From: Pseudolabrys sp.
Lineage (GTDB): Bacteria; Pseudomonadota; Alphaproteobacteria; Rhizobiales; Xanthobacteraceae
DNA length: 13,193 nt
NCBI GenBank assembly: GCA_019246455.1
Contig: JAFAQJ010000414.1
Coordinates: forward strand, 1-13,193
Reading direction: 5' to 3'
The stretch's first letter is position 1. Each line of letters begins with the position of its first letter. Shown here piece by piece: positions 1-10,672 of this stretch. The translations under genes were made by a program, and so were the position numbers. The notes under the pieces are model-generated. The model saw only the letters and a program-made list of their open reading frames with translations. It was not told where the DNA came from and did no database searches.

Positions 1-2195
<2,195 letters not shown>

Positions 2196-8459: not shown

Positions 8460-9002
8460 CTAGCGCACGACGCCCGAGATGCAGCACGGCTTGTGTCGCG
8501 GCCGCTTGATCTCGCTCTTGAGATAACAGCGTGCGCCGGCGCTGATGTAACCCGGCCTCACATATGTCCAGGCGCGGCATTTATTATCGCCGTCGCACTC
8601 GGCCTTGCAGCTCGCGCCCTCCGGATCGGTTTTGACGTCGAGGCTCTTGTAGTCGCCGCCCGGGCGGTCGATCGAAAATTCGATCGCTCCGGTACGGGGC
8701 TCGACGACGCCAGCGCCGCGCACGCCTGACACGCAGCAATTGTCCTCCTTGCGCGGCGTGACCTGATTCTTGAGCCAGCAGACCGGATCCGGGCGGTTCG
8801 GGCCTGGATAAGAAAAGCTCCAGGCGCGACATCGGCTTTCGCGCTCGCAGCGCGCCGCGCACGCGGCTGGATCGCCGGTGCGGACCTGGAAATTGGTGGA
8901 GTCACCGCCGGGGCGGTCGAAACCGATCTGCGCGCTGGCCGGCGTCACAGCAGCCACAATCGCGACGATCATAGCGCCGATCAGAAGCCTGCCATTCCGC
9001 AT
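8460..9002 (-). CDS. Secreted protein with two tandem PAN/Apple-like modules
   Basis: This is a 180-aa exported protein of unknown function. Residues 1-24 are a signal peptide (cleavage after ASA). Two homologous modules follow, about 25-95 and 107-179. Each starts with a DRPGGD motif and has six cysteines in the same order: 48, 52, 58, 75, 89, 90 and 132, 136, 142, 159, 173, 174. Shared motifs are CRAW, C(W/Y)LK and CC(V/I)SGV. This is the pattern of PAN/Apple-type disulfide domains, which often bind protein or carbohydrate. ATG at 9002 has only a modest upstream purine stretch (GAGGCAGG, 5 nt away). It converges with lepB. With only 12 cysteines in the mature chain, all may be paired; the ligand is unknown. 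Confidence 0.82.
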   Translation of the reverse strand: MRNGRLLIGAMIVAIVAAVTPASAQIGFDRPGGDSTNFQVRTGDPAACAARCERESRCRAWSFSYPGPNRPDPVCWLKNQVTPRKEDNCCVSGVRGAGVVEPRTGAIEFSIDRPGGDYKSLDVKTDPEGASCKAECDGDNKCRAWTYVRPGYISAGARCYLKSEIKRPRHKPCCISGVVR

Positions 9003-9109
9003 CCGCGCCTGCCTCGTGCCCGCTGCATCCTAACGCAGCGGCATGCCATTGTGCACACGCAGGTCGCGTGGCCCACATCTCAGATATTTGTGATGGGAAA
9101 ACCTCAATA

Positions 9110-9147
9110 TTAAAACTCGTGCGCCCGCCGGACGGGCCGGCGGGCGC
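9110..9147 (-). terminator. Intrinsic terminator for the DUF1127 transcript
   Basis: On the minus strand a perfect 11-bp GC-rich stem (GCGCCCGCCGG with its complement, 5-base loop) is followed by ACGAG and then a T-rich stretch, TTTTAATATT. The T-run starts late, so efficiency is uncertain. No gene reads into it from the other strand. Confidence 0.5.
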
Positions 9148-9213
9148 AGGATCCGGACGCGAGAGGGGATTTCGCTGTTCGGATCGAGCGGCCGGTGAGA
9201 GGGACCGGCCGCT
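9121..9213 (-). ncRNA. Candidate structured RNA: three adjacent hairpins after the DUF1127 gene
   Basis: Read on the minus strand from 13 nt after the DUF1127 stop, three hairpins are packed almost without gaps. The first (9187-9213) has a perfect 10-bp stem and a 7-base loop CCCTCTC. The second (9150-9185) has outer stem GATCCG/CGGATC and inner stem GCGA/TCGC, with loop AATCCCCTC. The third (9121-9147) has a perfect 11-bp stem and loop CCCGT. In Rhodobacter, the CcsR/'cuckoo' small RNAs are processed from the 3' UTR of a DUF1127 gene and carry C/U-rich anti-Shine-Dalgarno loops. The position and loop type are seen here; the relationship is my inference, and the exact CCUCCUCCC motif is absent. 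Confidence 0.5.
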
Positions 9214-9225
9214 ATTTCGTTGAGC

Positions 9226-9591
9226 TCAAACCGCCTGCCGAGCCGGACGCTCCAGGCAGGCCCGCTTGATGAGCAATTCGCGCTGCGCGCTCGCCGGCAT
9301 CACTAGGCGCAGTTCACTGGTGCGATAGAGCCGGCGTTCGAGCGCGCGCTCGCGCAGCAATGCGGTCGGGTCTTCCCAGAACGGCTCGGAAAACGCGTCA
9401 CGCACATCGGCGCGACTAATGCCCATATCGGCCAGCATGCGGCCATCGAGACCGGCCAAAGCGCGGCACTGCGCACGATGACGGCGCGCCTGGGCAAATG
9501 CTTTGAGCCAACCGCCCAGAATGGCGATGACCGGTGCCAAAGCCCGAGCCGGAGCCGCGGCGCCGATCGGAACCAGGGGATAAGTGCGCAT
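9226..9591 (-). CDS. DUF1127 domain protein
   Basis: This is a 121-aa basic protein. Residues about 28-70 match the DUF1127 core: an arginine-rich helix (QARRHRAQCRALAGL), then LDGRMLADMGISRADVRD. Many DUF1127 proteins are only about 45-75 aa, so this is a longer type with a C-terminal Arg/Leu-rich helix at about 77-112. Some small DUF1127 proteins in alphaproteobacteria (CcaF1 of Rhodobacter, for example) act as RNA-binding factors and others affect metabolism; no function can be assigned here. ATG 9591 has AAGGAG 8 nt upstream, a strong ribosome site. It is divergent from the LysR gene with LysR-type boxes between them, and structured RNA follows it. Confidence 0.85.
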   Translation of the reverse strand: MRTYPLVPIGAAAPARALAPVIAILGGWLKAFAQARRHRAQCRALAGLDGRMLADMGISRADVRDAFSEPFWEDPTALLRERALERRLYRTSELRLVMPASAQRELLIKRACLERPARQAV

Positions 9592-9691: not shown

Positions 9692-9721
9692 AATATGGAC
9701 CTGCACCATTGATTAGTGAAA
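9692..9721 (-). promoter_or_regulatory. Candidate promoter of the DUF1127 gene
   Basis: On the minus strand TTTCAC (9716-9721) and CATATT (9692-9697) stand 18 bp apart in an A/T-rich pocket about 100 bp upstream of the ATG. The -35 element overlaps the LysR-type box at 9712-9726, the usual arrangement for an activator site. Both hexamers are imperfect. Confidence 0.35.
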
Positions 9722-9757
9722 CGAATGTTTTTAATCTGACCAATCGTAATTCCTGAT
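9712..9757. promoter_or_regulatory. Two LysR-type T-N11-A boxes in the divergent promoter
   Basis: Box 1 (9712-9726) reads ATTAGT-GAA-ACGAAT, a dyad with one mismatch per arm and T-N11-A spacing. Box 2 (9743-9757) is ATC-N9-GAT, also T-N11-A, inside a wider dyad CCAATC-N9-GATGGG (9740-9760). Their centres are 31 bp apart, about three helical turns, so both face the same side. LysR regulators usually bind such paired sites to activate the divergent gene and repress their own. Confidence 0.5.
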
Positions 9758-9790
9758 GGGCTATACGCCCGCGAATCCGAGGATGTCGCC

Positions 9791-10672
9791 ATGACCGCGT
9801 TGATCGACGTCGACCAGCTCCGCACCTTCATTGCCATCGCCGAGACTGGCAGCTTCACCAAAGCGGCGGAGGTCGTGAACAAGACGCAATCCGCGGTGTC
9901 GATGCAGATGAAGCGGCTGGAGGAGCGGCTCGACCGACCGATCTTCGCACGCGACGGACGCGCGTCGAAATTGACCGAAGACGGCGGCCGCTTACTCGAT
10001 TACGCGCGACGCATCGTGAAGCTCAACATCGAGACCATCGCGGCATTCTCTGACGAGCATCTGTCCGGCCGTGTGCGACTCGGGGTGCCGGACGATTACG
10101 CCGACCGCTACCTGCCGGAAATCATGGCGCGCTTCTCGCGCGCTTATCCCGGGGTCGAATTGTCGGTGGTATGCGAGCCCTCAACCGACTTGCTTGAGCG
10201 CATCGACGCCAATGACATCGATCTCGCGATCGTGACGAATTGTGAGAGCAAGCGCGCCTCGGAAACATTTCGCCGCGAGCGTCTGCTGTGGGTGACCTCG
10301 AACCGGCATCCGACCCATCTCGAAGAACGCTTGCCGCTCGCGCTTGGCCGTCCGACCTGTTCGTGGCGACGTATTGCGATCGAGCGGCTGGAATCGATCG
10401 GCCGCCAATTCCGTATTCTCTACACGTCGTCGAACGCCGGCGCAGTCTCTTCGGCGGTGCTCAGTGGGTTAGCGGTGTCGGTGCTCGCGGAGTCCGGATT
10501 GCGGCCCGGCATGCGCGTTCTCACGGCGGCGGAAGGTTTTCCGGAATTGCCGTCGTGCAGGATTGGACTGGTGCGTTCGCCGCACGAGAGCTCGGCGCTG
10601 GCGGACGCACTCGCCGAGCATATCATCTCCTCGCTCGACAACCTCACTGAGGCCGCGCAAGCGGCGGAGTGA
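9791..10672 (+). CDS. LysR-family regulator, LsrB/VtlR-like
   Basis: This is a 293-aa transcription regulator. A winged helix-turn-helix occupies residues about 6-65 (FIAIAETGSFTKAAEVVNKTQSAVSMQMKRLE split over 13-44). The co-inducer domain starts near 93 (GRVRLGVPDDYADRYLPEI). The VPDDYADRYLP stretch and the N-terminal helix resemble, from memory, LsrB of Sinorhizobium and VtlR of Brucella. Brucella VtlR activates the sRNA AbcR2 and small DUF1127 genes; LsrB is linked to oxidative stress and glutathione synthesis. Four cysteines (128, 151, 190, 256) lie in the effector domain and could be redox-active. ATG 9791 has GAGG 9 nt upstream. It is divergent from DUF1127 and its stop abuts the ybaK stop. 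Orthology is probable but not proven. Confidence 0.85.
   Translation: MTALIDVDQLRTFIAIAETGSFTKAAEVVNKTQSAVSMQMKRLEERLDRPIFARDGRASKLTEDGGRLLDYARRIVKLNIETIAAFSDEHLSGRVRLGVPDDYADRYLPEIMARFSRAYPGVELSVVCEPSTDLLERIDANDIDLAIVTNCESKRASETFRRERLLWVTSNRHPTHLEERLPLALGRPTCSWRRIAIERLESIGRQFRILYTSSNAGAVSSAVLSGLAVSVLAESGLRPGMRVLTAAEGFPELPSCRIGLVRSPHESSALADALAEHIISSLDNLTEAAQAAE

Follow-up and report, generated by a model that had tools for sequence, protein, structure and literature searches.

A conserved three-hairpin RNA downstream of a DUF1127 gene in Pseudolabrys and its resemblance to cuckoo RNAs

The locus and the fold of the RNA

The DNA analysed here, called the window, is a stretch of 13,193 nucleotides from a Pseudolabrys sp. 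genome (contig JAFAQJ010000414.1, assembly GCA_019246455.1). Read along the minus strand it carries a DUF1127 open reading frame, a spacer of 13 nt, three contiguous hairpins (9212–9120) and a U run; a LysR-type regulator gene lies on the other side of DUF1127 and points away from it (Table 1). Proteins with DUF1127 are described in PMC12501420 as frequently shorter than 50 aa, and with its 121 aa the window protein is long for its kind. Its sister proteins close with a conserved tail like FRRPxTDRPARQAV.

Table 1. Features of the DUF1127/LysR locus in the window
Feature	Position	Strand	Basis
LysR-type regulator gene, LrhA-like, divergent from DUF1127	9791–10672	plus	
Conserved divergent control region, exact box 9710–9735	9694–9758	minus	profile of 66 sequences
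DUF1127 gene, 121 aa, arginine-rich	9226–9591	minus	Pfam PF06568, E 4.5e-10
RNA element of three hairpins, as delimited by the covariance-model match	9108–9214	minus	model R1, 106.4 bits, E 8.5e-17; the window's own sequence is among the 35 from which R1 was built
Hairpin 1, 9 bp, loop CCCUCUC at 9197–9203	9188–9212	minus	fold and covariation
Hairpin 2, outer and inner stem, loop AAUCCCCUC at 9163–9171	9150–9185	minus	fold and covariation
Hairpin 3, 12 bp, loop CCCGU at 9132–9136, presumed intrinsic terminator	9120–9148	minus	fold and covariation
U run (UUUU), four nt past the hairpin 3 stem, termination presumed	9112–9115	minus	sequence
Protein of 180 aa with two stretches of PAN domain, immediately 3' of the RNA	8460–9002	minus	

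A sequence-only reading of this DNA had placed three hairpins 13 nt behind the DUF1127 stop codon, and folding finds them in precisely that position. The region 9100–9230 folds at −66.9 kcal/mol as compared to −44.2 ± 3.7 kcal/mol for its shuffles (z −6.15, 0/200 shuffles as low). Hairpin 1 pairs 9212–9204 with 9196–9188, and the segment 9212–9182 folded alone reaches −19.0 kcal/mol (z −4.4). Hairpin 2 has an outer stem (9185–9180 with 9155–9150) and an inner stem (9175–9172 with 9162–9159), and it is the weakest of the three, with −8.7 kcal/mol (z −2.0) for 9182–9149, the outermost bases left off. The stem of hairpin 3 (9148–9137 with 9131–9120) folds alone at −27.7 kcal/mol (z −4.6). The heptamer CCCTCTC had been reported twice in the element, as the whole loop of hairpin 1 and in or at the edge of the loop of hairpin 2. 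The former description holds; in the second copy (9167–9161) only CCCTC lies in the loop, while T9162 and C9161 are paired with A9172 and G9173.

Conservation of the element and of the control region

The DUF1127 protein has a match in 47/60 genomes and, its own genome counted, in 35/36 genomes of the same genus. In all 35 readable same-genus loci, one of which was read on a second contig, the RNA element lies 3' of DUF1127 on the same strand, 6–91 nt from the stop codon and between diverged flanks. Folded alone, every one of the 35 elements forms three hairpins, the first two with C-rich loops; in some longer folds of 200 nt (e.g. L013 and L028) hairpin 2 is paired differently in the best structure. 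CCCTCTC is present in hairpin 1 of 30/35 loci and in hairpin 2 of 35/35, where it is partly stem. The T run is kept in 29 genus sequences, and beyond the U run the sequence has diverged. The spacer between stop codon and hairpin 1 in L007, L015, L019 and L024 carries palindromic repeats (GCATGATC...GATCATGCG type). Weak matches to the Brucella sRNA models BASRCI408 or BASRCI27 fall on the repeats in L007 and L024 as well as on another place in L005, which suggests that these models contain a dispersed repeat.

A covariance model built from relatives of the locus, one of the checks that the earlier reading had suggested, does recover the element. This model (R1, from 35 genus sequences) has one strong match each in 41/43 genus genomes, and in 28/28 with a completeness of 90% or more and a contamination of 5% or less; the two genomes without a match are 88% and 72% complete. 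Two of the matched genomes have an additional weak match, by eye a terminator, and a second strong copy turned up in none of the 41 genomes.

In searches reaching beyond the genus, R1, although built from Pseudolabrys sequences only, matches 3/347 genomes from the order at E ≤ 0.001 (the own genome and two from other families, at loci L063 and L062) and 20/41 genomes of a family sample at E ≤ 0.1 (including the own genome and one more Pseudolabrys), and these extra-genus matches are lower bounds, as searches across more than 40 genomes used stricter filters and lost weak matches. The family matches examined, mainly the stronger ones, include ten loci from other genera (L064–L073); nine of them lie behind DUF1127 and have LysR on the opposite strand, and L072 does not. 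A scan of named genomes with an alignment of DUF1127 yielded 72 loci, distributed over Pseudolabrys, Pseudorhodoplanes, Rhodoplanes, Ancylobacter, Xanthobacter, Phreatobacter, Bosea and others; the cultured Pseudolabrys sp. Root1462 has the locus too (L142). It is important to note that close relatives are among the 72 loci, which cannot be counted as independent. A LysR match on the opposite strand is found at 71/72 of them, CCCCTC no more than 250 nt from the DUF1127 stop at 64/72 (shuffles 13, other strand 1), and CCCCTC at a predicted hairpin loop at 56/72. In Ancylobacter and Phreatobacter only a hairpin-2-like hairpin and a terminator are visible by eye.

Covariation and loop conservation in homologous loci, on which the sequence-only reading had made its proposal depend, are both present. 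In an alignment of 45 family loci (A4), double changes occur in 23/29 pairs (117 cells), 97.2% of cells are paired compared with 28–48% for slid partners, and 0/500 shuffles attain any of five measures. These loci were chosen as R1 matches at E ≤ 0.001 and fitted to the structure of the model, so that the alignment leans towards the model, a bias that persists despite the slid controls; the worse-matching loci of Ancylobacter, Xanthobacter and Phreatobacter stand outside the pair counts. All three hairpins contribute. Hairpin 1 has double changes at 5/7 modelled pairs, its innermost modelled pair showing an A-U/G-C exchange in 13/45 sequences, hairpin 2 has them at 11/11, and hairpin 3 at 7/11 with 98.8% of cells paired. 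In the genus-only alignment (A2) 5/29 pairs are doubly changed; hairpin 2 is misaligned there in its inner stem, which pairs in only 79.8%. Our results demonstrate that the element is a real, strongly conserved structured RNA.

The two C-rich loops behave differently. CCCCTC is found in hairpin 2 of 42/45 rows of the family alignment, and the heptamer CCCTCTC in hairpin 2 of 20/20 Pseudolabrys rows and 4/25 other rows. In hairpin 1, CCCTCTC is confined to 16/20 Pseudolabrys rows and CCTCTC to 18/20, both with 0/25 in the other rows, whereas CCTCC occurs in 0/20 Pseudolabrys rows and 12/25 other rows. Judged by these rows, the constant loop is that of hairpin 2 (CCCCUC), and hairpin 1 differs between genera, with CCCUCUC in most Pseudolabrys. 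The heptamer is no repeat in the strict sense: from genus to genus CCCCTC persists in hairpin 2 and hairpin 1 varies.

The association with a LysR regulator, also proposed earlier, is borne out by the arrangement of the locus, in which the LysR gene stands beside DUF1127 and shares a conserved control region with it. A profile of 66 sequences, window included, reads CATCA-N7-TGAT ... AGATTAnAAACATTCGTTTCACT.ATCAAT ... CATA between LysR and DUF1127; the consensus is CATCA-N7-TGAT (CATCA-N7-CGAT in the window), then AGATTAAAAACATTCGTTTCACTAATCAAT, then CATA. With up to 3 mismatches the box occurs once per genome in 41/43 genus genomes and never as its reversed control, and the two genomes without the box are the same two that lack the RNA. 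An automated scan left 7/72 named loci without a box (L167, L205, L182, L203, L186, L191, L197). L167 and L205 do show it and were missed as the genes sit elsewhere in the locus, and L182 and L203 are likewise shifted. This distribution is consistent with an operator dedicated to this one locus, which would presumably be bound by the LysR protein.

The closest solved structure to the window LysR is LrhA, and its score with the NCBI LrhA model is 187 bits, below the cut-off of 530. A VtlR/LsrB reading is tempting because VtlR activates three DUF1127 genes in Brucella, as reported in PMC12595884. The layout of the vtlR locus given in PMC7486931 is found at L110, with the end of a pyridine nucleotide-disulphide oxidoreductase (as in TrxB), LysR and ar15 RNAs. 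The L110 LysR is 27% identical to the window LysR at 52 bits, compared with 532–568 bits for the genus copies seen. Taking L110 as a proxy we rejected orthology with LsrB/VtlR, and the window LysR is apparently neither of them.

Relation to ar14, cuckoo and CcsR RNAs

We take ar14 to be the same family as SmelA075/SmelA099 and the cuckoo RNA, or a close one. The CIN1/CcsR locus of Rhodobacter sphaeroides has an RpoHI/RpoHII promoter. According to PMC3927594 and PMC10253847 the canonical loop is an anti-Shine-Dalgarno element and the association with DUF1127 constitutes the CIN1 locus, and the canonical relatives are presumed in PMC3927594 to block the ribosome-binding sites of target mRNAs. 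For Rhodobacter sphaeroides, PMC10253847 describes a DUF1127 gene followed by CcsR sRNAs, co-transcribed with it and matured by RNase E; CcaF1, a DUF1127 RNA-binding protein, participates in the maturation.

The sequence-only reading had taken the element for a divergent cuckoo/CcsR member with another motif and had pointed to covariance models as a check. The Rfam models do not detect it at their gathering scores. The best Rfam match of the window is ar14 (RF02344) at 24.0 bits (E 0.45), under the gathering score of 58.8, and CcsR1 (RF02791, gathering score 65.3) gives no match in the window up to E 10. What stands of the claim is the resemblance to ar14, the C-rich loops and a motif unlike CCUCCUCCC. 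On sister loci ar14 scores 26–43 bits, with a match at E ≤ 1 in 16/19 Pseudolabrys loci and none in 3/19, and across the genus 24–46 bits; 58.8 bits are reached in 0/43 genus genomes and 0/119 family genomes. At E ≤ 0.1, ar14 matches 27/43 genus genomes and also 1/14 control genomes. A place in L100 (1351–1497, minus strand) is a clear ar7 sRNA (120.9 bits) and scores 44.7 bits with ar14, and the two families may be related. The sub-threshold ar14 scores are weak evidence because this ar7 RNA scores so high, a control genome matches, and 14 of the 26 sub-threshold family places among the matches listed have no DUF1127 in the stretch examined.

The similarity runs in both directions. R1 gives 37.8 bits at L063 and 38.0 bits at L062, loci that ar14 matches above its cut-off (81.7 and 59.1 bits, respectively). 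At L063 a 56-aa DUF1127 ORF is followed by the RNA, which has CCUCCUCC loops in all three hairpins; at L062, a canonical ar14 locus, no DUF1127 was found in the stretch examined. Beside the ar14 RNA of L063, and convergent with it, lies a LysR-family gene (PF00126, PF03466; 590–1501, plus strand), which gave no match as a relative of the window LysR.

In anatomy the element shares much with the cuckoo RNAs. It lies downstream of DUF1127 on the same strand (35/35 genus loci, 9/10 of L064–L073) and forms a chain of hairpins with exposed C-rich loops and a closing terminator, termination itself being presumed. Like ar14 it has three consecutive hairpins with C-rich loops, the last one a terminator, and a position 3' of DUF1127, as at L063. 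The loops are different: mostly CCCUCUC, CCCCUC and CCCCU in Pseudolabrys and CCUCCUCCC in ar14. The cuckoo motif CCUCCUCCC was not found in the hairpins, and even CCTCC is in hairpin 1 of 0/20 Pseudolabrys rows. Copy number differs as well, one strong copy per genome (R1, 41/43 genomes) compared with the several that PMC3927594 describes for the ar14 family. Ten sub-threshold genus places (L100–L109) were examined for second copies, and L104–L109 were rejected as terminators by eye. L101 (~1586–1681, plus strand) and L102 (~1551–1646, minus strand) are separate two-hairpin RNAs with one loop CCUCCUCCC, carried by genomes G013 and G011; the one in L101 lies just ahead of the RNase P RNA (RF00010, 1729–2150).

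Other systems are more distant. CcsR1-4/CcaF1 at the CIN1 locus of Rhodobacter sphaeroides has the same order of DUF1127 gene and RNA; in the window DUF1127 is longer, LysR and a conserved divergent control region adjoin it, and CcsR1 does not match up to E 10. AbcR1/AbcR2 (ar15) with LsrB/VtlR is likewise an sRNA with an anti-SD loop adjoining a LysR gene, as described in PMC12595884 and PMC3712013, but the window has another LysR, another RNA and another location. sX13 (RF02232) is also a multi-hairpin RNA with C-rich loops; the window scores 18.7 bits with it against a threshold of 50 (E 7.4). Among the titles listed in literature searches, none describes this RNA. Common descent with the cuckoo RNAs is likely. 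The element resembles them in anatomy, and by this analogy it is predicted to act like them.

Possible function and rival readings

The earlier reading had also called CCCTCTC complementary to purine-rich ribosome-binding sites, and this is true to a limited degree. Loop complements were counted before all ATGs of the 43 genomes, gene starts or not, with the pattern read backwards as the control; these genome-wide counts replaced statistics from 217 called starts (400 kb of G010), which were too few and poorly called. GAGAGGG, the complement of the hairpin 1 loop, occurs 699 times compared with 300 in the control (2.3×), whereas GGGAGGA, the complement of the canonical loop core, occurs 4–9 nt before ATG 2869 times compared with 192 (14.9×). 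The complement of the hairpin 2 loop, GAGGGGA, is enriched about tenfold (906 compared with 91). By these counts hairpin 2 still fits ribosome-binding sites and the Pseudolabrys hairpin 1 fits them much less; the poor fit therefore suggests a narrow set of targets or another partner for the hairpin 1 loop.

Candidate target sites were inspected in 20 stretches among the matches listed. Only GAGAGGG before a Bax1-I-like ORF recurred ahead of a long ORF, and the remaining sites are single, short or within ORFs. In three genomes (L231–L233) GAGAGGG stands 7–8 nt before the ATG of a 246–251 aa Bax1-I-like membrane protein, a 60-residue piece of which matches PF01027 with E 9e-4, below the cut-off. 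The hairpin 1 loop may target this gene, which is a lead and not evidence.

Our best reading, held with moderate confidence, is that the element is a 3'-UTR-derived RNA that binds ribosome-binding sites and represents a divergent variant of the cuckoo RNAs. The divergent LysR regulator would control a promoter between LysR and DUF1127, and DUF1127 and the RNA would be transcribed together, the RNA being the 3' UTR of the DUF1127 mRNA and hairpin 3 terminating transcription. RNase E could cut the A-rich stretch ahead of hairpin 1, perhaps aided by the DUF1127 protein in the way of Rhodobacter CcaF1. The C-rich loops of the released RNA would then bind purine-rich ribosome-binding sites and lower translation.

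The strong copy stands behind DUF1127 in 35/35 loci, and the 41 genomes yielded no second strong one; few ribosome-binding sites fit the hairpin 1 loop, and CcaF1, itself a DUF1127 protein, is reported in PMC10253847 to bind RNA and to share in CcsR maturation. All this would also suit an element that acts in cis, as a part of the 3' UTR that terminates transcription and protects or destabilises the DUF1127 mRNA, with its loops bound by the DUF1127 protein in an autoregulatory manner. We regard such a cis role as unlikely, given that the hairpin 2 complement occurs about ten times as often before ATG as its control, an excess that any SD-like string may show, and that the canonical relatives of the same layout are presumed in PMC3927594 to block the ribosome-binding sites of their targets.

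Similarity to the cuckoo/CIN1 RNAs could have arisen by convergence, the element being an anti-Shine-Dalgarno RNA that works like them without descending from them. The same gene, gene order and hairpin layout, the two-way similarity and the UCCUCCC-kind loops in other genera of the family make this improbable, even if the element scores below the ar14 threshold and is not matched by CcsR1, the DUF1127 protein has 121 aa in the window compared with 56 aa at L063, C-rich hairpins can arise anew, and an ar7 RNA reaches 44.7 bits with ar14. An ordinary terminator with two incidental hairpins of no regulatory function is very hard to credit: hairpin 3 and the U run are plausible as a terminator, and by eye some genera have only a hairpin-2-like hairpin besides one, but covariation in all stems and conservation of the loops would not be expected.

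Returning to the reading of a divergent cuckoo variant, the cuckoo/DUF1127 module may have been rewired twice in one family, once by a dedicated LysR switch with a single operator per genome and once by retuning of the Pseudolabrys hairpin 1 from general Shine-Dalgarno sequences to narrow sites, hairpin 2 still being general. We put this forward tentatively, as a possibility with the odds somewhat against it.

Based on the results obtained, searches that apply a threshold miss this RNA, and the DUF1127/cuckoo system is therefore probably wider than catalogued: it probably extends to Pseudolabrys and to genera near it, where the loops and the adjoining regulator are different. Genera with similar stems and changing loops make it possible to test directly how specificity is gained by a general anti-Shine-Dalgarno RNA, and the same series is a test of co-evolution between DUF1127 protein and RNA. 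If the double rewiring is true, a broad RNA directed against ribosome-binding sites would have been made more selective by a change of the loop alone, with the stem unchanged.
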